This document shows positions 16,795-48,599 of a stretch of 64,000 nt of DNA, one piece after another. The stretch is from assembly GCF_014931565.1 (NCBI RefSeq), contig NZ_CP063353.1:3038001-3102000 (forward strand), written 5' to 3'. Both the position numbers and the translations under genes were made by a program. The notes below the pieces were generated by a model. The model was not told the origin of the DNA. It saw only the letters and a program-made list of their open reading frames with translations, and ran no database searches. Position 1 is the first letter of the stretch. Every line of letters starts with the position of its first letter. The stretch comes from Clostridium sp. 'deep sea' (lineage in GTDB: Bacteria; Bacillota; UBA994; PWPR01).

Positions 16795-16809
16795 AAGGAG
16801 TGTGTGCAA

Positions 16810-17991
16810 ATGTTTAATAAGAAATTCGTTATCGGAGCAATAATCATTATTATAGTTTTATTAGTGATTGTAGCTAATAACATCAACTACTCTGCTACAT
16901 CTAGTAAAGATATAAATCCAACTATCTTATTTCAAACTAGCAAGAGTAGTGATGAAGTTAATTACACAATTAGCATTAATAAAATGATAGATACGTATAT
17001 TATTGCTAGCGCATTATACCTGGATTTTGATAGTAGAATAATACTGCCTAATACCGAAGAACATTCAATCTATAAAAAAGCCAAAGAATTCTTTATACCA
17101 TATAAAAATCACAGTTTTATTAAGTCTATGCATAAATATGTTAATAATGGCGATGTGAATGGAGATGTTATTGGAGTTTTATTGTCCTATAGTCCTACAG
17201 CCTCTTTAAATAAACTACATAATGTTGATGATAAGTATAAAAGGTACTTATTTAAGGAAGATAAAGACATTGAAATTTTTATAAGAGGTCTTAAAGACTT
17301 TTATAAAGATAGCAATGCAAATAAATTTTTTAGTTGTAATAAAGCATTGGATAGAAAAGTAAAAACCTATATTCAAAAGAATACTAAAGAGAGTAAAATA
17401 ATTGAATTAATAAAATCTACAGAAGAATATGTAAATACTAAAAATAAATACTTTGGAGAATTACCTGTAGCGTATGAAACAGTACTAACAATTTTTAGAC
17501 CGTCAATGGCAAGTTTTTATTCATATGAGACAAAGAATGGATTTAAAATAATATCTTTTCAATCACCAAATGATATTTCTCAAAACCCATACAAACTAGA
17601 TATTTGCAATTTCGTTGAAAATGTCATTCACGAATTTCTTCATTCATACATAAACGAACCAATATATAATATAACAATCAGTAATTGCAAAGATATAAGC
17701 AAATACTATACTAGTATCGTTAATAACAAAATGTATAGTAGTATGCCACTAACTAGACAGATAGATGAATATATAGTGAGAGCTATTGAAGGTAGAATCT
17801 ACAGTCAAACGTTTGGGGAGGAATATGCTAAAAAAACAATTATTAATAAAGAAATTGAATTTGGGGGATTTGAGAGATTAGGTGAAATTTATAACATGCT
17901 AAGTAATTATGAAAAAGACAGAGATAAATATCTAGCCATAGATGATTTTTTACCTCAACTAGTGGAGGAATTAACTAGACGGGCTGAATAG
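16810..17991 (+). CDS. Membrane-anchored HExxH protein, putative metallopeptidase (DUF4932-like)
   Basis: The ATG at 16810 lies nine bases after AAGGAG. A GTG at 16804 is also possible. The 393-residue product has one N-terminal membrane segment (residues ~7-24) and a large, Lys- and Ile-rich outer part. Residues 274-278 read HEFLH within NVIHEFLHSYINEP, the zinc-binding HExxH motif, and about 40-50 residues on RQIDEYIVRAIEGRIY offers a possible third Glu ligand, a gluzincin-like layout. This resembles DUF4932-type predicted proteases, from memory. Substrate is unknown. The gene stands alone between two gaps. Confidence 0.6.
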   Translation: MFNKKFVIGAIIIIIVLLVIVANNINYSATSSKDINPTILFQTSKSSDEVNYTISINKMIDTYIIASALYLDFDSRIILPNTEEHSIYKKAKEFFIPYKNHSFIKSMHKYVNNGDVNGDVIGVLLSYSPTASLNKLHNVDDKYKRYLFKEDKDIEIFIRGLKDFYKDSNANKFFSCNKALDRKVKTYIQKNTKESKIIELIKSTEEYVNTKNKYFGELPVAYETVLTIFRPSMASFYSYETKNGFKIISFQSPNDISQNPYKLDICNFVENVIHEFLHSYINEPIYNITISNCKDISKYYTSIVNNKMYSSMPLTRQIDEYIVRAIEGRIYSQTFGEEYAKKTIINKEIEFGGFERLGEIYNMLSNYEKDRDKYLAIDDFLPQLVEELTRRAE

Positions 17992-22370: not shown

Positions 22371-22399
22371 TTGTTAAATGTAAAATAATAACTTATAAT
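22371..22399 (+). promoter_or_regulatory. Promoter of the RiPP cluster
   Basis: TTGTTA and a consensus TATAAT are 17 bases apart, about 130 bases before the first precursor. The transcript would start near 22407, so the upstream arm of the flanking inverted repeat (22457-22473) would be in the RNA. Confidence 0.65.
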
Positions 22400-22456
22400 G
22401 GTTATATAAGACTAATTAACTATTAAATTATAGTTTATTATATTTATTATGTTAAG

Positions 22457-22682
22457 AAGTCTCAGTATCTATAATATTAAGATTTTTTATATTTATTATT
22501 ATCAAAAATACTTACGAAAGGAGTGAAAACTATGAAGTACAAAACTCCTAGCTTAATTAGTATTGAAGAGATATCTAGAGGATGTAGTGGTGGTAACTGC
22601 TGTAATGGCAAGCCAGGTCAAGAGCTAGAACAAAGATAGTTAATAACAACTTAATTTAAGCTAATATAGATGGCTGAGACTT
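22457..22682 (+). repeat. Inverted arms enclosing precursor gene 1
   Basis: AAGTCTCAGTATCTATA (22457-22473) can pair with TATAGATGGCTGAGACTT (22665-22682): nine perfect pairs, a one-base bulge beside a G-U pair, then seven more pairs. A short T-run follows the downstream arm. The two arms enclose the whole precursor gene. The copy around precursor 2 has the same layout. Confidence 0.7.
22532..22639 (+). CDS. Cys-rich RiPP precursor peptide 1
   Basis: The 35-residue ORF begins MKYKTPSLISIEEISRG and continues CSGGNCCNGKPGQELEQR. GAAAGGAG lies about eight bases upstream. It matches precursor 2 (25567-25677) in leader (MKYxxP...S-EE-SRG) and core (C-x-x-G-x-CCNGKP), with three Cys at 18, 23 and 24. 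Followed by PqqD-like and radical SAM genes, it is very likely a modified peptide substrate. The modified residues and cleavage site are unknown. Cys thioether links are a plausible guess for a SPASM enzyme. Confidence 0.85.
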   Translation: MKYKTPSLISIEEISRGCSGGNCCNGKPGQELEQR

Positions 22683-22783
22683 TTTATATTTATATAAGAA
22701 TCTTCAAACCAGAATTATTAAAGTAACTAAAATAGAGCTTTTTACTCTATTAATAAAATTATCATACAATTAGGAGGGCGAAA

Positions 22784-23047
22784 ATGGATATTAGTTTAAG
22801 CGATAAATTTAAGTGGATTTTAAAAGAAAGCGGAGGTTATATTTATAGCTTTGAAGATAAAAGTGTTAAAGTTATTAATGAAACAGGGGTCTATATTTTA
22901 CAAAACATAACAAATTGCAGTATGGAAGAGTTAGCAGATAATATGACTGAACGTTATAAAGATACTAAGAGAGAAGACCTATACAGAGATATAAATAGCT
23001 TTATAAACCAATTGCAGTCGGAGGGTTATTTATGCGTAAACAAATAG
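22784..23047 (+). CDS. PqqD-like RiPP recognition protein
   Basis: The 87-residue protein has the PqqD pattern: KSVKVINETGVYILQNITNC followed by SMEELADNMTERYKD and a final helix DINSFINQLQSEGYLCVNK. PqqD-type domains bind the leader peptide and present it to the radical SAM enzyme. The ATG follows TTAGGAGGG. Its end overlaps the next gene by 16 bases, so the two are likely made together. Confidence 0.88.
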   Translation: MDISLSDKFKWILKESGGYIYSFEDKSVKVINETGVYILQNITNCSMEELADNMTERYKDTKREDLYRDINSFINQLQSEGYLCVNK

Positions 23048-24087
23048 ACAGACTTTACATAACCCTTACAAATCAATGTAATATGAGATGTCCACATTGC
23101 TGGATATCAGCAGGTGAGGCTCATGATGAAAGAAAAATTGAGTTTAGGGAGTATAAAAACGTAATTGATTCTTTATTAAATTATGGTCTTAAAACAATTA
23201 AAGTAACTGGTGGAGAGCCACTCATCAAAAAAGACTTAGTTAAATCATTATTAGCCTATTGTAATGAAAAATCTTTAAGCTTTAACGTAGAAACAAATGG
23301 CTTACTTATAGATGATGAATATCTTGAGTTATTTAAAAATGCTAAAGATATAGAGCTAGGCTTAAGCTTAGATTTTCCCAATGACATGCATGATAGCTTT
23401 AGAAAGTTTCCAGATGCATTTAACATTATAAAAAATGTTTTAATTAAGCTCAATAAAAATAATATATCAAACTCAGTCGTAATGACTGTTCATAAAGGCA
23501 ACTATCACTTTATGGAGCAGCTTGCCGACTTAGTAATAGGTGAGTTTGGTGGTACATTTGTTAAGTACCTAGTTTGTAGAGAATCTGGAAGAGCAGAAAC
23601 AGAAATGCTTAATGAGTTATTAAATCCTAGTGAAATAATCAATTTCTATAAAGAAGTGATTAGAATAGCCCATAAATACCCCAAAAAAATAACGGCTATG
23701 ATTCCAACCGCATTCCAAGAAATAGATAGCGAATTAATTGTTGGAACATGTGATTTTGATAAAATAATTAGTGTTTTACCAGATGGCTCTATAGCATTAT
23801 GTGGCATTGGTATTAACAACCCCGAAACTGTCTTAGGTAAAATTAGTGTAGATTCTATTTCAAATATCGTTGAAAACAACATGCTTTTAGAGAAAATAAG
23901 AAGTCAGAACAAAGTATATACCGGAGTATGTGGGGTTTGTATTTTTAACAAAGTTTGTGCCAATATTTGTCCTGCAAGCTCTTACTCGTCATATAATACC
24001 TATTTTGGGCCATATCCTATTTGCCAAAAACTATATGAAGCTGGTTTATTCCCTCAAGAATATGTTATTGGTGAAGCAGCTGTATGA
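23032..24087 (+). CDS. Radical SAM/SPASM peptide maturase
   Basis: The 351-residue enzyme has the radical SAM [4Fe-4S] motif C16-NMR-C20-PH-C23 and the SAM-binding VTGGEPL at ~59-65. The C-terminal SPASM region has many Cys (GTCDF, ALCGIG, GVCGVCIFNKVCANICPASS and PICQKL) to hold auxiliary clusters. SPASM enzymes make thioether, C-C or related links in peptides. It overlaps the PqqD-like gene and the next gene (ATGA). This is the presumed catalyst acting on the two Cys-rich precursors. Confidence 0.92.
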   Translation: MRKQIDRLYITLTNQCNMRCPHCWISAGEAHDERKIEFREYKNVIDSLLNYGLKTIKVTGGEPLIKKDLVKSLLAYCNEKSLSFNVETNGLLIDDEYLELFKNAKDIELGLSLDFPNDMHDSFRKFPDAFNIIKNVLIKLNKNNISNSVVMTVHKGNYHFMEQLADLVIGEFGGTFVKYLVCRESGRAETEMLNELLNPSEIINFYKEVIRIAHKYPKKITAMIPTAFQEIDSELIVGTCDFDKIISVLPDGSIALCGIGINNPETVLGKISVDSISNIVENNMLLEKIRSQNKVYTGVCGVCIFNKVCANICPASSYSSYNTYFGPYPICQKLYEAGLFPQEYVIGEAAV

Positions 24088-24986
24088 TAGAACTAGATAC
24101 CTTATACCTCAGATTTGCAGACAGTATAGCTATTAACGAACACTTAATAATAAAGGGTATTAAAGAAGCCAAAGAGCTAAGTGCTAAAAACATCAAGTTT
24201 TTTGGTAACTCTACCAGAGATAAAGAGCTTTTTAAACGACTAGTAAAACAAATTGTGGCGTTAAATATGGCTGTTGAAATAGACATTAATATAACTGATA
24301 TTGATTTAGAGTTAGTAGAATTCATTAAAGAGCATGCCGCCTCAGTTAAATTTGGTTTAAATATAACGCCCCCCTATAACTTAAATGATATAAACATTAA
24401 TTGTAAGGGTTTATTAGTAAATATAAATATCAACAACAATAATATTAATTTTATACCAGATATTATAGATAGCTATATCTATAAACATGGCTTTAGAAGA
24501 GTAAAGCTTTACTTTAATCTACATAGTCTTGATTACGATAAATATCAAAATTTAGTAAAGTATATCTTACAACACTACAGTGAATATGGAGATAAGTTAT
24601 ATACTGCCATTCCCTATGTCTTTTTAGAGCAGCGTAATCTAAAACTAGCACGCAGAGTATGTAATTATCATAAAGTAGTAGGTCTGTTTACGGACGGTGT
24701 AATTACTGCATGTGGTATTAAAAGAAGTAGATCTGATGAATCTTATAATTTGAAACAAAAAAGCTTACTACAAATAATTACTTCGCATGAAAAAATAATA
24801 AAATTACACCAAATGAAACCCAGTGATTTAGTAGGTGTTTGTAAAATTTGTGTATTTAAAAATTACTGTGGCAATATTTGCCCAGCAGCAGTATATAACC
24901 ATAGTGGTGCTTTTAACAAGTCATTTAGAGATTGTCAGCTACTATACGATAAGGGGTTATTTCCAAATGAATATCTTACAGTCTAA
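24084..24986 (+). CDS. SPASM protein lacking the radical SAM motif (pseudo-maturase)
   Basis: The 300-residue protein parallels the preceding maturase: both open with an x-LY-x-x-(T/A) strand and end in a near-identical SPASM tail (GVCKICVFKNYCGNICPAAV, then RDCQLLYDKGLFPNEY). Where the maturase has CNMRCPHC this protein has no Cys at all (RFADSIAINEH), and GGEP is replaced by GNST. It probably cannot bind the SAM cluster but could bind auxiliary clusters. It starts at ATG 24084 overlapping the previous stop. A structural or substrate-binding partner role is inferred. Confidence 0.8.
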   Translation: MIELDTLYLRFADSIAINEHLIIKGIKEAKELSAKNIKFFGNSTRDKELFKRLVKQIVALNMAVEIDINITDIDLELVEFIKEHAASVKFGLNITPPYNLNDININCKGLLVNININNNNINFIPDIIDSYIYKHGFRRVKLYFNLHSLDYDKYQNLVKYILQHYSEYGDKLYTAIPYVFLEQRNLKLARRVCNYHKVVGLFTDGVITACGIKRSRSDESYNLKQKSLLQIITSHEKIIKLHQMKPSDLVGVCKICVFKNYCGNICPAAVYNHSGAFNKSFRDCQLLYDKGLFPNEYLTV

Positions 24987-25470
24987 TTCTTTGTTACCTT
25001 TAGAAACAAAAAATTGTTTAGACATAAATATAGATCACGAGTGGTTTATTACAAAAAGCTATAACATTAACATGCAAAACTTAAGTGAACTGCAACGATT
25101 TGTTATGGAATTTAAAAGGCAAGATTTAAACAACCTTGTTGAATGTTACTGGGGTAATAAACAGGTTAAGTATGGAATTTGTTATAAGTACTCAACTGTT
25201 TTGTGTGCATTATTATTAAAGAACTTTGCAAAAAAAGATATATATGTATTGATATGTCACGATACAGGGCATAATTTTTATAACTCTATTCATGCATCTG
25301 TAATATATTTATTAAATGATCAATGGATTGAAATTGATTTAACGAAAGAAAAAGCTGAATTAGCTGTTAGCACAATACCTCTTGAGGCAATGGCAGATAG
25401 AGTAATATGCTTATTTAACAATAATACCAGCTTTATTAACATAAACAAAAATTTAAGCTATCAAGTTTAA
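24967..25470 (+). CDS. Transglutaminase-like cysteine protein, candidate leader peptidase
   Basis: Using the ATG at 24967, 20 bases before the previous stop, the product is 167 residues. An open frame extends to 24835 inside the preceding gene but is unlikely. The transglutaminase/papain core pattern is visible: C72 in YGICYKYSTVLCALLL, H109 in NSIHASVIYLL and D124 in DQWIEIDLT. In lasso-peptide systems a protein of this fold (B2) cuts the leader. The same role is proposed here by analogy. Confidence 0.65.
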   Translation: MNILQSNSLLPLETKNCLDINIDHEWFITKSYNINMQNLSELQRFVMEFKRQDLNNLVECYWGNKQVKYGICYKYSTVLCALLLKNFAKKDIYVLICHDTGHNFYNSIHASVIYLLNDQWIEIDLTKEKAELAVSTIPLEAMADRVICLFNNNTSFININKNLSYQV

Positions 25471-25490
25471 CTAATGAGTATGCGTTTATA

Positions 25491-25709
25491 AAGTCTCTGG
25501 TATCTATTAAGTGTATTATAGTAGTTAATTTTATTAACCAAATTACATAGGAAAGGAGGGATAAATGTGAAATACAACGTACCTAGAATTAAATCTTTAG
25601 AAGAAGTATCAAGAGGTTGTGGTGCAGGAGATTGTTGTAATGGTAAACCAACAGAGCCCGAGCAGAAATTTAATTAAAGTCTAACTTAATAAATAGATAC
25701 TAGAGACTT
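25491..25709 (+). repeat. Inverted arms enclosing precursor gene 2
   Basis: AAGTCTCTGGTATCTATT (25491-25508) and AATAGATACTAGAGACTT (25692-25709) pair along all 18 bases, with one G-U, and eight T follow including the last two arm bases. The loop would contain the entire precursor gene. The downstream arm plus T-run may also act as a terminator. Compared with precursor 1, the base changes in the arms compensate each other. Confidence 0.75.
25567..25677 (+). CDS. Cys-rich RiPP precursor peptide 2
   Basis: The start is GTG at 25567, six bases after AAAGGAGGG. The 36-residue peptide starts MKYNVPRIKSLEEVSRG and continues CGAGDCCNGKPTEPEQKFN. It is a paralog of precursor 1 with all three Cys and CCNGKP kept while flanking residues differ, a pattern of selection on the core. 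It lies between the maturation genes and the ABC exporter. Confidence 0.85.
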   Translation: MKYNVPRIKSLEEVSRGCGAGDCCNGKPTEPEQKFN

Positions 25710-25754
25710 TTTTTTTATAAGTCTAGTAAAACCAAAATTATGAGGAATATTATA

Positions 25755-26684
25755 ATGGAAAATATATTTAAGATAAAAAATGTTTGTAAAACATATAAAA
25801 ATGGTGTACAAGCTAATAATAATATTTGTTTAAACATTGATAAAGGCGAAATATTTGGTTTATTTGGCCCAAATGGTGCGGGAAAAACTACCCTTATTAA
25901 ACAAATAACTACCCTAATAAAGCCTACGTCAGGTACTATTGATATATTTGGTAAAGACCTTTATGAGAATATTCCTTTAGCTATTAACAATATTTCTTAT
26001 TTAGGACAAGCTACAGCTGCTTTCTCAACATATAGATTCGAAGATGTTATTTTACATGCTGGTATGCATAGGGGATTATCTAAAAAAGAAACTATAAAGC
26101 AAACAAATTATTTAATCGATAGATTTAATATGAATAAAAAAAGAAAAAGACTAAGATATCAGTTATCAGGGGGAGAGCGTAAGCTTTCTATGTTATTGGC
26201 TACTTTTATAGGTAATAATCCAATCTTAATATTAGATGAGCCCACTAATCAACTTGACCCACGACACAGAGCGAAGGTTTGGCAATATCTTATAGAACTA
26301 AATAAAGAGCAAAATACAACAATTGTTTTAGTAACTCACAATGTAATAGAAGCAGAAAATGTGATAAATAGAGTAGCTATTATTGATGACGGCAAGATTT
26401 GCGCTAATGGTTCACAGGGTGAATTAAAAAAACAGGTAAGTGACGAGGTAAAAATTATAGTTACATTTAAAGGTCAAGTTGATTTAAGTAACATTAAAAA
26501 TGAATACAAACAAATCCAAAAAGATAAGTATTGCATTTATACCGATAGCTCTAATATGTCTGTTGTATTCGACTCCCTAGTTAAATCAGTAGGTTTAACA
26601 AAAATCGACGATTTTAGAGTAACCACACCAACCCTAGAGGATGTTTATACTAAACTAACAAGGAGAGAGTGGGATGGAAAATAA
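25755..26684 (+). CDS. ABC transporter ATP-binding protein, likely peptide export
   Basis: The 309-residue ATPase (from ATG 25755 with GAGG upstream; ATG 25740 is an alternative) has Walker A GPNGAGKTT, signature LSGGERK and Walker B ILILDEPTNQLD, plus a C-terminal extension usual in ABC-2 drug or bacteriocin transporters. It overlaps the permease gene by 11 bases. Its place after precursor 2 suggests export of, or immunity to, the mature peptide. Confidence 0.88.
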   Translation: MENIFKIKNVCKTYKNGVQANNNICLNIDKGEIFGLFGPNGAGKTTLIKQITTLIKPTSGTIDIFGKDLYENIPLAINNISYLGQATAAFSTYRFEDVILHAGMHRGLSKKETIKQTNYLIDRFNMNKKRKRLRYQLSGGERKLSMLLATFIGNNPILILDEPTNQLDPRHRAKVWQYLIELNKEQNTTIVLVTHNVIEAENVINRVAIIDDGKICANGSQGELKKQVSDEVKIIVTFKGQVDLSNIKNEYKQIQKDKYCIYTDSSNMSVVFDSLVKSVGLTKIDDFRVTTPTLEDVYTKLTRREWDGK

Positions 26685-27450
26685 TAAAATTAAAAAATTC
26701 TTTATAGACTACTGGTGGATACTAAAAGGTAAACTGTATGATATGCGTCTTGAGTGGAAATTTTACATAATACTAATTTCTCTATCTCCATTAAGCTACT
26801 TATTTTTCCTATGGTTTTATGGAGGCATGGGTGATTATAGTAAAAATCTCTATATAGTAACTGGTTCGGTGGCTAATAGTGCTGTAACAGCAGCAATGCT
26901 TGGGTTAGGGCAAAGCATTGGTTCTTTGCGTTTAAGCCACGTTATGGAATACTACGCTACTTATCCTATTTCCAAACTATCTTTTATACTTGCTTTAGCT
27001 AGTAAGGGCGTGATATTTTCTATTCCATCAGCAATTATAATATTAGTAATAGGTGGTCCAGTATTAGGGGTTCCAGTTATATCGAACCTTATTCCAATCT
27101 TTATTGTTTACTTTGCTGGTGCCTTTAGCTTAGCTGGATTGGGTGCAATCATTGGTTTTTATGGGTCTACCCCTTACTCATCCAGTATGATAACTCAAAT
27201 AGTTAGTCCCTTAATAGTTTTATTTGCTCCTGTTTATTTTCCACTATTTAAATTGCCAAGATTTTTGCAAATAAGCTCACATGTAATTCCAACTACCTAT
27301 GTAGCGAGGGGCATGCGTCAGGCTATAACTACCCCTTATAGTACAGGCTATTGGTTAAATATTTTAATACTTTTAGGCTTCACTATAGTTGGTTTAGTAG
27401 CCAGTGTTTATAAAACATCTTGGCGTGTTACATCAACAGAAGCCAAATAA
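26674..27450 (+). CDS. ABC-2 type permease, likely peptide export
   Basis: The 258-residue protein has about six hydrophobic segments and the ABC-2 layout (long cytosolic start IKKFFIDYWWILKGKLYDMR, then membrane pairs). It lacks a peptidase domain, so leader removal must be done by another protein such as the transglutaminase-like neighbour. It overlaps the ATPase gene and ends the cluster before a terminator. Confidence 0.87.
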   Translation: MENNKIKKFFIDYWWILKGKLYDMRLEWKFYIILISLSPLSYLFFLWFYGGMGDYSKNLYIVTGSVANSAVTAAMLGLGQSIGSLRLSHVMEYYATYPISKLSFILALASKGVIFSIPSAIIILVIGGPVLGVPVISNLIPIFIVYFAGAFSLAGLGAIIGFYGSTPYSSSMITQIVSPLIVLFAPVYFPLFKLPRFLQISSHVIPTTYVARGMRQAITTPYSTGYWLNILILLGFTIVGLVASVYKTSWRVTSTEAK

Positions 27451-27796
27451 ACAATAAAACTATTGTTAAATGAGTAGCAGACATTTAACTTTTGTACAAA
27501 TTACCCCAATATAAATTGAGTGAAAATAATTGCTTGGTATACTTTAAATAAACTTACATACTTATATTATTATAGAACTGATAAATCTTACAATTATAAG
27601 AGTCAGTTCTTTTTAATGTCAAGTGAAGTATAAAATTTACTCAAAATAATATAATAATTCTGAAAAATCAGAAAAAAACAGCAGGAATTTTAACTTCATT
27701 CTATAATATAATATATGTTAAAACTTCCATAATTTATAAATATTCAATACTATGAATATATATAAGCGGAAAGATAAAAAAACAGGAGGTAATGTG
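27451..27796. other. Gap holding the RiPP cluster terminator
   Basis: Apart from the terminator at 27574-27614 the region is AT-rich. A promoter for the next gene is expected but none is convincing. Confidence 0.5.
27574..27614 (+). terminator. Rho-independent terminator after the ABC exporter
   Basis: AGAACTGA (27574-27581) pairs with TCAGTTCT (27603-27610), with extra CTT/AAG pairs inside, and T's follow. It lies 124 bases after the permease stop and closes the peptide cluster. Confidence 0.8.
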
Positions 27797-45368: not shown

Positions 45369-48300
45369 TTATAATTTTACCTGTTTTAGCTCAAGCCATA
45401 GTGGTTTAGAGTGGTTAATATTACCGGCATAGAATAATAGTGAATCAGGTTTGGCTGCATTTTTAAAGAGTTGTTCACAAACATAACCATACGAAATACA
45501 TAAAGTATTTTGACTGAATTTTGGAGCAATTAAGGCTAGTGTATTATCTTCTTTTTGATTAACATATAGCCACTTATTTCTTGCTATTTCACTATTATTT
45601 AATACTTCTTCCCAAGGTCTAAAATTAAACTTATTAAACCAACACATAAAATCTTCTACTGTAGGAACAATAATATCCTTAACATAAGGAGAATAAAGTT
45701 GAACATAATTAGTAAACAGCATTCTCCTCATAATGAAATGACATTTATCGTTTAAATCTTTTTGAGTATTAAGTCTGTGTTCGTCTTTTTCTAAATCTTC
45801 TATAGCTAAATAGCTGTTTAATTCACGTGCATATAATGCATATACTTTTTTATTATAAGTTGGCATAATATCTGTGGCTATTTCAATATTATGAACCATA
45901 TAAGGCTCATTAGAAGAGATTATGAGTCTATTATTTTTGGATAACTTATCAGCTGATATCCTCCAAACATCTTCTCTAAAGAACCTATTTCGTAAAGGGC
46001 TAACTATTGTACTTCCATCAAATAAAGAAATACAATCACTCATGTTAGAAACAAAGGTTTCTGGTCTATATTCTTTTTCAATGTCATACTCACCCTCTTG
46101 ATTAGATAATGTAATAGAAACCTTTCTGTTTAGGTAATCAGTATTATTCATATTAATAAATCTACTACAAAGCCTTAAATAAATGGGTTTGTCTATTTTA
46201 CTTAAATTAAACTCTATACTAAACTTACTTACTTTGGTATTGTTACTAACAGTATGCCAACTACCGTCAAAAATTTTCCATGGTTCAAGGGCAGACTTTT
46301 CCTTACAAAACTTTGCATTACCAATAATAGCTAAATTCTTATTAGCAAAATCTCCAACACTGTTATAATTTAAAATGTTACCAAAGTCAAAGAAGATATA
46401 ATCTATGGCTTCTTTTTCAGCATATACTGCATTTCTTTCTAAAGGCAAATCTCCAAAAAATTCATTCTTAAACCTTTCCAAATAGCTAATAATATTACTG
46501 ACAAGTGTATAATTAATACGTTTTTTATTTAATTTGCTATAACAAATTAACTGCCTACAAACTCTTCTTAATTCGTCTTTAATATTTTGTACTCTTTTCC
46601 ATAAACCGTACTTGTTATTAATGAACAAAAGAATCTCTTCTAAGTATTCTTCACCATATGTTGCAACTAAATGATTATATTCATCGGGAATAACTGACAT
46701 CCAGTTATAGGTATCAAAACTTATAGAGCATAAATAGTTTTTAAAATCAGCTATATCCCATAAGCAGTTTACATAATGAAGTAACTCTGAATTATTTCTG
46801 TAATCATCGCTATGTATTAACTTAAAATAAGCCTTTATTAAAGTAGCATATTTATCAATTTCATTAAACACAGGTAATTCAAGGGACTTATTAACAGCTG
46901 TTTTAATTTCATTTATGTATTCAGCTATGCTAGCTGTATCTACACCTTTTATTTGCGTAACTGATAGTTCAGGCATATAGTCATCTAAACAAGATATATA
47001 CTTCATAATAATTTTTTCAATTATGTTATTATCATATAGTTCCTCAGTTAAATTATTTACATTTTTGCCAAGCTGAATAATTTCATTAAAAGTTTGCTGT
47101 TGTTTATTTAATACACAAAATTCTGGGGTTCTTAAAATAAACTCAACTAAACTAAGGCTACCTTCTGCCCAGTATATTGGTGATATATACTCTTTTAATC
47201 TATTGATAGGCGACAAATAGGTATCAGCATACTCAGCTAAAAATGGAATATATTCATCAATACCATTTTCTTTTATACCTTGAATACACTCGGGTATACC
47301 ATCAGCTAAATGTTTTGATTTTAACATTGGTTTTATGGTAGAGCAGTTAATAAAATTATAAAATCCTTTAATCTGCATCTCATATGGCATATCATTATTA
47401 AAGTTTTCATGGTAAGTTAACATTTCATTTCTATTATTAAAGTAGTCTTCATCTAAGAGGATATCAAACATATTATCTAAAGATTTTTTTATCACTGAAA
47501 TATTTTTATCAATATGTGCTAAGTCATTTTTAATATCTACAAAGTTTTCTATAATTGTTTGTTCTATATGATTTAAATACTTAAATACATTCTTAAAATT
47601 ATGTTGTATCATATCACCTAATTGAGCAATTTGATCAATAATCATTTCCTCTGGAGTTTTTTTGTTTCTGTTAATAAAATATGATGTTATAGATGTAATA
47701 CCTCCAATTAAACTAGCAGCCACCCCTATAAGTCCAAGTGGCCCAGCAGCACACCCAATTAGTGAAATCCCTACACTAAGAGTTGCGCCAATAATAACAC
47801 CAGCACAATTAAACGCCTCTTCTACTTCTTCATTGCCTGTTGCACCTGCTATTAAACCTCCTAATTCAGTAATACCAGTTATAATGCTAGATGTATTGTT
47901 GATAAAGTCTTGAGCATCACTTACTTTTTGGCTTTTCTCCCAATCATCAAAAAAGTCATTAGCCTTTTCATTTAAAGATTTTATTTTAGTTATTTTAGTT
48001 TTTGAAGTTTCTTGTTGTATACCTAAAATATCATTTACTAAATCATCATAAATCTCTTGAGCGTCAACATCTTCATCATTAACACATTTTAAATGTCCCT
48101 CAATATACTTTTTGAATTTATCTAAATCACCATTATATTTAACAAATAATTCAGACAACATAGCCATGTCTAAAGCCTTAGGATTACCTGTTATTAATAT
48201 TAATTCGTTAACTTTTTTATGAGTAATTTCAATACATTCAACGAGTGCAGTCTTAATTTTGTTTAAAAGAATAACTTCAACATTTAAATAAAAATTTAAC

Positions 48301-48599
48301 AAATGTTCAAGTATTTTAACATATAAATTTAAATTATAAAACGATGGTATCGAAACAAAATTGTACTTTTCCACATCACTAACGGATGTAATTGCCTTAT
48401 TAATACTTGGCATTGAAGATGCAATACAGTTTCTTATAATTCGTTCTTTACATTGGTGGTTTTGCTCATTTTTATCAAGATATTTGGCTATTAAAAGGGC
48501 CCTATAAATAAACCTATCACACTCTAATGTTTCTTGATTTTTTTTAATGTAATGCTGTTGAATAGTGCTGTTTAAAAATTTTCCTTGCTCTTGAGTCAT
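45369..48599 (-). CDS. Large protein with glycine-rich hydrophobic core, paralog A (unknown function)
   Basis: The 1,076-residue protein has no signal peptide. Residues 1-~230 are helical. ~236-309 hold two hydrophobic stretches rich in Gly and Ala (IITGITELGGLIAGATG and AGVIIGATLSVGISLIG...ITSITSYFI). ~315-385 look coiled-coil (IDQIAQLGDMIQHNFKNVFK). The rest is helical, then apparently beta-rich, with a C-terminal segment (YALYARELNSYLAIEDLEKD) suggesting a trefoil or lectin-like module. AGGAGG lies seven bases before the ATG. It is paralogous to 58716-61940. A pore-forming or membrane-active role is only a hypothesis. Confidence 0.75.
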   Translation of the reverse strand: MTQEQGKFLNSTIQQHYIKKNQETLECDRFIYRALLIAKYLDKNEQNHQCKERIIRNCIASSMPSINKAITSVSDVEKYNFVSIPSFYNLNLYVKILEHLLNFYLNVEVILLNKIKTALVECIEITHKKVNELILITGNPKALDMAMLSELFVKYNGDLDKFKKYIEGHLKCVNDEDVDAQEIYDDLVNDILGIQQETSKTKITKIKSLNEKANDFFDDWEKSQKVSDAQDFINNTSSIITGITELGGLIAGATGNEEVEEAFNCAGVIIGATLSVGISLIGCAAGPLGLIGVAASLIGGITSITSYFINRNKKTPEEMIIDQIAQLGDMIQHNFKNVFKYLNHIEQTIIENFVDIKNDLAHIDKNISVIKKSLDNMFDILLDEDYFNNRNEMLTYHENFNNDMPYEMQIKGFYNFINCSTIKPMLKSKHLADGIPECIQGIKENGIDEYIPFLAEYADTYLSPINRLKEYISPIYWAEGSLSLVEFILRTPEFCVLNKQQQTFNEIIQLGKNVNNLTEELYDNNIIEKIIMKYISCLDDYMPELSVTQIKGVDTASIAEYINEIKTAVNKSLELPVFNEIDKYATLIKAYFKLIHSDDYRNNSELLHYVNCLWDIADFKNYLCSISFDTYNWMSVIPDEYNHLVATYGEEYLEEILLFINNKYGLWKRVQNIKDELRRVCRQLICYSKLNKKRINYTLVSNIISYLERFKNEFFGDLPLERNAVYAEKEAIDYIFFDFGNILNYNSVGDFANKNLAIIGNAKFCKEKSALEPWKIFDGSWHTVSNNTKVSKFSIEFNLSKIDKPIYLRLCSRFINMNNTDYLNRKVSITLSNQEGEYDIEKEYRPETFVSNMSDCISLFDGSTIVSPLRNRFFREDVWRISADKLSKNNRLIISSNEPYMVHNIEIATDIMPTYNKKVYALYARELNSYLAIEDLEKDEHRLNTQKDLNDKCHFIMRRMLFTNYVQLYSPYVKDIIVPTVEDFMCWFNKFNFRPWEEVLNNSEIARNKWLYVNQKEDNTLALIAPKFSQNTLCISYGYVCEQLFKNAAKPDSLLFYAGNINHSKPLWLELKQVKL

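Follow-up and report, generated by a model that had tools for sequence, protein, structure and literature searches.

A probable leader-guided peptide-modification operon with a pseudo-radical-SAM twin in Clostridium sp. 'deep sea'

We analysed 64,000 nt of the genome of Clostridium sp. 'deep sea' (NZ_CP063353.1, positions 3,038,001-3,102,000; assembly GCF_014931565.1), hereafter called the window, whose positions serve as coordinates throughout. The plus strand from 22532 to 27450 carries, in the order listed below, a short precursor gene, genes for a PqqD-type protein, a radical S-adenosylmethionine (SAM) enzyme, a paralogue of that enzyme and a transglutaminase-like protein, a second precursor gene, and genes for the ATPase and permease of an ABC transporter. 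Judged by sequence, these genes probably form a leader-guided operon for a ribosomally synthesised and post-translationally modified peptide (RiPP), of a class that the searched libraries do not describe. The locus comprises the following features:

22371..22399, plus strand: promoter-like site TTGTTA-17-TATAAT, agreeing with 10 of 12 consensus positions.
22532..22639, plus strand: precursor peptide 1, MKYKTPSLISIEEISRGCSGGNCCNGKPGQELEQR, 35 aa; ATG start, ribosome-binding site AAAGGAG, leader Y3xxP6xL8; paralogue of precursor 2.
22784..23047, plus strand: PqqD-type RiPP recognition element (RRE), 87 aa; Pfam PF05402, E 1.7e-11.
23032..24087, plus strand: radical SAM/SPASM peptide maturase, 351 aa; PF04055, E 2.9e-24; SPASM PF13186, E 1.3e-4.
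24084..24986, plus strand: pseudo-radical-SAM paralogue, 300 aa; lacks CxxxCxxC and GGE, SPASM motif intact.
24967..25470, plus strand: transglutaminase-like cysteine enzyme, candidate leader peptidase, 167 aa; weak DUF553 match; Cys72, His109 and Asp124 conserved.
25567..25677, plus strand: precursor peptide 2, MKYNVPRIKSLEEVSRGCGAGDCCNGKPTEPEQKFN, 36 aa; GTG start, ribosome-binding site AAAGGAGGG, leader Y3xxP6xI8.
25740..26684, plus strand: DrrA-type ABC transporter ATPase; ABC_tran, E 7.4e-28; DrrA model, E 3.5e-57, 194 bits (cut-off 312); alternative start at 25755 with a better ribosome-binding site.
26674..27450, plus strand: ABC-2 type permease; ABC2_membrane_3, E 1e-12.
27574..27614, plus strand: terminator-like hairpin AGAACTGA...TCAGTTCT followed by T5; an inverted repeat of -14.3 kcal/mol, fold z -3.4.

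The four enzyme genes, from the PqqD gene to that of the transglutaminase-like protein, overlap by 16, 4 and 20 nt, which resembles a translationally coupled operon. A preliminary description of this DNA had named all of the genes, and each is present. It had the two precursors bracketing the enzymes together with the ABC pair; they do bracket the four enzyme genes, whereas the ABC pair comes after the second precursor gene. It had further placed a promoter and a terminator at the ends of the locus. The latter finds a counterpart in the hairpin downstream of the ABC genes, whereas promoter-like sites are no commoner than in shuffled sequence (32 found against 33.3 expected), so that the site at 22371-22399 is no evidence alone. 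Hairpins 3' of the two precursors are not more stable than their shuffles (z -1.06 and +0.80), and attenuation is not claimed. On the minus strand, a perfect 12/12 sigma-70 match (TTGACA-18-TATAAT, 27593-27622) overlaps the terminator hairpin and points back into the operon.

Precursors 1 and 2 are identical at 21 of 35 residues (60%; BLASTP E 9e-15), as expected from the preliminary description of two paralogous precursors of about 35 residues, and a good ribosome-binding site precedes each gene. At 12 of these 21 shared residues the codons differ. The peptide has thus been kept while the DNA drifted, a pattern indicating that both precursors are under peptide-level selection. The invariant part of their cores reads S-R-G-C-x2-G-x-C-C-N-G-K-P, with three cysteines per core, and the core motif is unique to the two precursor sites in the 3.83-Mb genome. 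Short precursor genes beside modifying enzymes, the general mark of a RiPP locus, are thus found here. The precursors match no NCBIfam model. The CCNGKP pattern had 8 other matches in 299 genomes of the phylum, none precursor-like when read in frame. A precursor profile run against 85,000 genomes, in a search that required near-exact short stretches, returned 114 pattern matches of which none was confirmed, and it had no match in IMG/VR.

Both leaders carry the sequence Y3-x-x-P6-x-[L/I]8. Discrete RREs of lasso peptide systems bind [Y/W]xxPx[L/V/I/A/F/Y], precursors of pyrroloquinoline quinone (PQQ) carry the same motif, and the LPP system requires YxxP (PMC13381572); a broad survey of RREs recovered the same motif group, one sactipeptide RRE included (PMC12710340). 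The window leaders match this motif, and the PqqD gene, 144 nt downstream of precursor 1, supplies a domain (PF05402) of the leader-binding kind. From motif and domain together, we predict that the PqqD-type RRE captures both precursors by their Y-x-x-P-x-[L/I] leader.

These features recall two known systems. The locus shares with lasso systems that have discrete B1 (RRE) and B2 proteins a discrete RRE, a YxxPx[L/I] leader and a small, putatively transglutaminase-like cysteine enzyme. Unlike in those systems, there is no asparagine-synthetase-like cyclase among the genes of the locus, a radical SAM enzyme stands in the cyclase's place, and the transglutaminase-like enzyme does not align with B2 proteins of Bacillota. 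The leader motif also occurs in PQQ and LPP systems, and is hence not diagnostic of lasso systems. In the PQQ system (PqqA-PqqD-PqqE), PqqD is likewise a trans-acting RRE for a radical SAM/SPASM enzyme, and its precursors are reported to have the lasso-like leader motif (PMC13381572), as here. In contrast to PQQ, the core is different, the PqqE model is outside the 25 best for the window's radical SAM enzyme, the window PqqD reaches 17.7 bits where the cut-off is 46, and the other PQQ genes are absent from the locus.

The radical SAM enzyme has the sequence features of an active SPASM maturase: a CxxxCxxC motif (CNMRCPHC, residues 16-23), GGE at residue 60 and a complete seven-Cys SPASM motif. 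The Pfam matches listed above agree with the PqqD and radical SAM genes of the preliminary description. The best NCBIfam model for the radical SAM enzyme is ScmF of the SynChlorMet system (168.2 bits; cut-off 400), and no listed NCBIfam model matched it above its own cut-off; the PapB, SCIFF, AlbA and SkfB models gave 96 (cut-off 340), 65.3 (425), 69.5 (850) and 71.4 bits (300). By sequence, the closest solved chains are 5wgg ('Radical SAM domain protein', E 3.6e-17), which we take to be the SCIFF maturase CteB, and 6efn (SkfB, E 2.4e-16). Both are peptide maturases, and we therefore count them in favour of a RiPP system; a defence library gave generic radical SAM and ATPase matches only. The enzyme would modify the core G-C-x2-G-x-C-C-N-G-K-P. 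Going by family and core composition, cysteine-derived thioether crosslinks are the most likely modification, which we state with low confidence.

The locus is not alone. When the same 85,000 genomes were searched with aligned radical SAM and SPASM tails, six relatives emerged, one of them close. This locus, L056, lies on contig JAMCWA010000084.1 of a Bacillota metagenome-assembled genome (MAG; isolate FK_Sedi_B_Bin.70), apparently from sediment, judged by the isolate name. It encodes a PqqD protein (38% identical to that of the window), a radical SAM enzyme (40% over 350 columns), its twin (29%), a transglutaminase-like protein (26%), an ABC ATPase (41%) and a permease (51%), in the order and orientation of the window. 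An odd single locus thereby becomes a conserved unit. This is in line with the earlier proposal of a complete make-and-export system, since the predicted cassette of precursors, RRE, radical SAM enzyme, cysteine-enzyme candidate and exporter is kept in L056 as a six-gene unit.

At 136 nt 5' of its PqqD gene, a distance close to the 144 nt of the window, L056 has a small open reading frame (ORF) ending in ...SNNKPCWNGKSGSSGLGSVGDV, with the core C-W-N-G-K. The precursor profile, run on the L056 genome, gave two matches at E 0.1, both due to chance, and the ORF was found by position and motif instead. The motif C-x-N-G-K, picked after being seen, occurs once in the six frames of the 84.5-kb contig, in this ORF. 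Across the 3.1-Mb L056 genome, one DNA form of C-[C/W]-N-G-K likewise has a single match, again at this ORF. The same DNA form is also found once in the window's genome, outside the locus, so single chance matches are to be expected. On sequence grounds, we regard the ORF as a candidate precursor only.

Beyond L056 the gene set is rare. The twin has no full-length relative in the 149 nearest genomes, one of them of the same genus, nor in 398 genomes of the phylum, and the closest radical SAM enzyme among the sampled phylum genomes is 32% identical and belongs to a locus with PqqD and two radical SAM genes. In this type of locus (L022, 5314-7779), PqqD is followed by two intact tandem radical SAM/SPASM genes, with an MFS-like gene upstream (by eye); three genomes that belong to a single genus (G188, G212 and G305) gave matches to it, the nearest sampled relatives of the window enzyme in the phylum. 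A search of 299 further genomes around the L056 MAG found only the MAG itself and partial matches resembling such PqqD and two-radical-SAM loci. Plasmids gave no match to the twin or the transglutaminase-like protein, and scans of IMG/VR with single sequences and with the paralogue alignment gave nothing, or generic radical SAM enzymes at 22-32% identity. None of the loci with a similar radical SAM enzyme and listed genes (L022, L023, L024, L026, L057, L058 and L060) holds the six-gene set.

The most unusual member of the set is the twin, which has no Pfam match. Both CxxxCxxC and GGE are absent from it in the window and in L056, and the protein should therefore not bind the [4Fe-4S] cluster of radical SAM enzymes. 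In the window, the reading frame of the twin opens only three codons 5' of its ATG, so no radical SAM motif is hidden there. In both genomes it retains the SPASM pattern C-x11-G-x4-C ... C-x2-C-x5-C-x3-C-x17-C, with seven cysteines and the same spacing as in the active enzyme. The preliminary description had called it a dead SPASM partner; the radical SAM motifs are indeed lost, but the SPASM motif is intact, and by its sequence the twin is a pseudo-radical-SAM protein with intact auxiliary-cluster sites. The structure model of the twin has a mean pLDDT of 51, and no fold is claimed from the model alone; its N-terminal half, where model confidence is moderate (it is poor C-terminally), gave Foldseek matches to PqqE, SkfB and SuiB (E 1e-5 to 2e-3).

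A tree of 13 radical SAM sequences, including the window and L056 enzymes, both twins and ScmE and ScmF, pairs the two twins (100/100); both enzymes and both twins together form a single supported group (95/94), to which ScmE, ScmF and the others do not belong. This placement indicates that the twin arose from the same lineage as the active enzyme. The simplest history would be that the radical SAM gene was duplicated within this lineage and that one copy then lost the SAM cluster but long kept its auxiliary-cluster ligands. That the SPASM ligands are retained over such divergence argues for a function that requires the auxiliary clusters or their fold. The twin and the active enzyme are probably partners in a complex, in which the twin would serve substrate placement or electron transfer.

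It is possible, though in our view doubtful, that the locus is an ordinary sactipeptide or ranthipeptide system, in which the radical SAM enzyme alone makes the cysteine thioethers and the twin is dispensable. The closest structures are those of CteB and SkfB, maturases of a SCIFF/ranthipeptide and a sactipeptide with Cys-containing cores, as here with three cysteines per core, and the NCBIfam matches include the PapB, CcpM and SCIFF maturases, all far under cut-off. Yet the twin is retained with its seven SPASM cysteines in both genomes, the best model, ScmF, represents another maturase type, and no precursor model was matched. Unlike CteB and SkfB, the window enzyme has other precursors, a discrete RRE and a dead twin, and does not reach the curated cut-offs.

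Closer in layout is SynChlorMet (ScmE/ScmF; TIGR04250/TIGR04251), which likewise combines a PqqD-type protein with two tandem related radical SAM/SPASM genes. The locus could then be a decayed SynChlorMet cassette with one of its two radical SAM partners degenerating. ScmF is the best curated match of the window enzyme and shares with it the C-terminal signature CQ-x-x-Y-x-x-G-[LI]-F-P; the twin matches ScmF C-terminally (40.9 bits), and SCM-like cassettes (L057, L058) carry two radical SAM genes. However, these scores and that of the L056 enzyme (147.9 bits) are far under the ScmF cut-off. The twin reaches 22 bits for ScmE and branches with the window enzyme rather than with ScmE, and the motif loss is common to two distant genomes, hence old and retained. 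The neighbouring genes differ as well: the SCM-like loci that were examined showed no transglutaminase-like, ABC-2 or CCNGKP precursor genes. With one of the pair catalytically dead and the tree setting the pair apart, we consider a decayed SynChlorMet cassette very improbable.

Partners without a usable radical SAM cluster have precedents. The GeoRSP system has a PqqD-type protein and a SPASM protein without a usable radical SAM cluster. The window enzyme, which is likewise a radical SAM/SPASM maturase, scores 80.6 bits for GeoRSP (TIGR04303) against a cut-off of 400, and at E up to 1 none of the GeoRSP models hit the twin. NCBIfam also names a haloarchaeal pseudo-SAM/SPASM family, TIGR04347, so dead radical SAM/SPASM partners are not unknown as such; the twin has no match to it at E up to 1.

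The 167-aa protein is suggested to be of the wider transglutaminase/papain-like type. Its match to DUF553 ('transglutaminase-like') is sub-threshold (E 0.0048), as is a Transglut_core match of its L056 homologue over the same stretch (E 0.038), and Cys72, His109 and Asp124 are present in both proteins. In a weak model (mean pLDDT 48), from which alone no fold is claimed, Cys72 lies on a helix (68-86), His109 on a strand (108-116) and Asp124 on another (119-124), the order expected for transglutaminase/papain-like enzymes. Many structural matches of this low-confidence model are of that type (LapG, vasohibins, NTAQ1, peptide:N-glycanase and arylamine N-acyltransferases), all with Z below 5. The protein had been described earlier as transglutaminase-like and B2-like; the wider kinship is suggested to this extent, whereas kinship with lasso B2 proteins is not supported, as hhalign gave a probability of 0.1% against three Bacillota B2 proteins. 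PF13471 has no match in the protein, nor anywhere in the genome at E <= 1e-6.

Leader peptidases of lasso systems contain a transglutaminase-like domain and cut the leader beside the RRE (PMC10885120). By this analogy a leader-peptidase role is plausible, and the Cys/His/Asp enzyme would cut near S-R-G/C. A different role, in which it forms an amide bond or macrocycle and host proteases cut the leader, could be read from VIA-align matches of similar Z to arylamine N-acyltransferases, the amide synthase GdmF and NTAQ1, which stand next to peptidases. The lasso precedent for leader cleavage and the lack of any other peptidase candidate in the gene set make this role unlikely.

The transporter genes complete the set. 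From their families, the ABC-2 pair is predicted to export the peptide product, and this DrrAB-type transporter may equally protect the producer. The product could be a peptide-derived cofactor or a metal-binding peptide rather than an antibacterial one: the core C-C-N-G-K is short, its vicinal cysteine pair suits metal or redox chemistry, the logic of PqqD, radical SAM enzyme and peptidase is PQQ-like and is joined by an exporter, and no separate immunity gene was recognised at the locus. Two precursor variants and extreme rarity (a same-genus genome and about 400 sampled genomes lack the set) are a better fit for a niche product, however, and no cofactor-using partner enzyme was recognised at the locus; on balance, we find a cofactor or metal-binding product rather unlikely.

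Taken together, no curated NCBIfam class fits the gene set or the precursors, in agreement with the earlier statement that the combination matches no known class, and no paper in the literature searched brought together pseudoenzyme, SPASM and RiPP or dealt with the SynChlorMet or GeoRSP systems. Several points weigh against a leader-guided RiPP operon of an undescribed class. The six-gene set is found in two genomes only. The L056 candidate precursor shows no recognisable YxxP leader, convincing start or ribosome-binding site, and shares only C-x-N-G-K with the window cores; the absence of the leader could be due to a frameshift in the contig, whose coverage is 4x. The sequence links of the transglutaminase-like protein are sub-threshold and its model is weak. 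Finally, the dead twin could be a passenger, against which its retention in two genomes speaks. As a more specific but tentative proposal, to which we give somewhat less than an even chance, the locus would define a new class of RiPPs, matured by an obligate heterodimer in which an active radical SAM/SPASM enzyme is paired with a twin that has kept only its two auxiliary Fe-S clusters. The twin would supply the substrate placement or electron path that single maturases give in cis, and the pair would act on the CCNGKP core via a lasso/PQQ-type leader.

Several further loci were seen in passing. In two Bacillota genomes (L026, 6318-12940; L023, 2264-6894), a radical SAM gene stands with genes for a 312/336-aa protein that matches no Pfam family, an SDR enzyme and a DrrAB-like ABC-2 pair; L026 additionally has a PqqD-like ORF (by eye) and an Rce1-like (CAAX-type) membrane protease. 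This cassette looks like a separate uncharacterised system. At L071 (1085-3293), two PqqD-like ORFs (by eye) flank the gene for a lasso-type B2 protein, and a radical-SAM-like gene lies immediately downstream; this may be a mixed lasso and radical SAM cluster. Elsewhere in the window, two paralogues of about 1075 aa (45369-48599 and 58716-61940, both minus strand) have a glycine-rich hydrophobic stretch near residue 250 and no significant Pfam family, with one sub-threshold HEPN_Swt1 match; the genes between them resemble those for a peptide permease with its substrate-binding protein and for two ABC exporters. At 16804-17991 on the plus strand lies the gene for a 395-aa protein that carries a DUF4932 domain (E 2.4e-19).

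The role of the auxiliary Fe-S clusters of SPASM proteins is a long-standing question. In the operon described here the sites are apparently separated, with one protein carrying the SAM-cluster site and auxiliary sites and its twin auxiliary sites only. If both do work together, the function of the auxiliary clusters would be directly testable by cluster mutation in one subunit. Moreover, the CCNGKP core, the lasso-type leader, radical SAM chemistry and a transglutaminase-like enzyme point to an uncharted peptide product.

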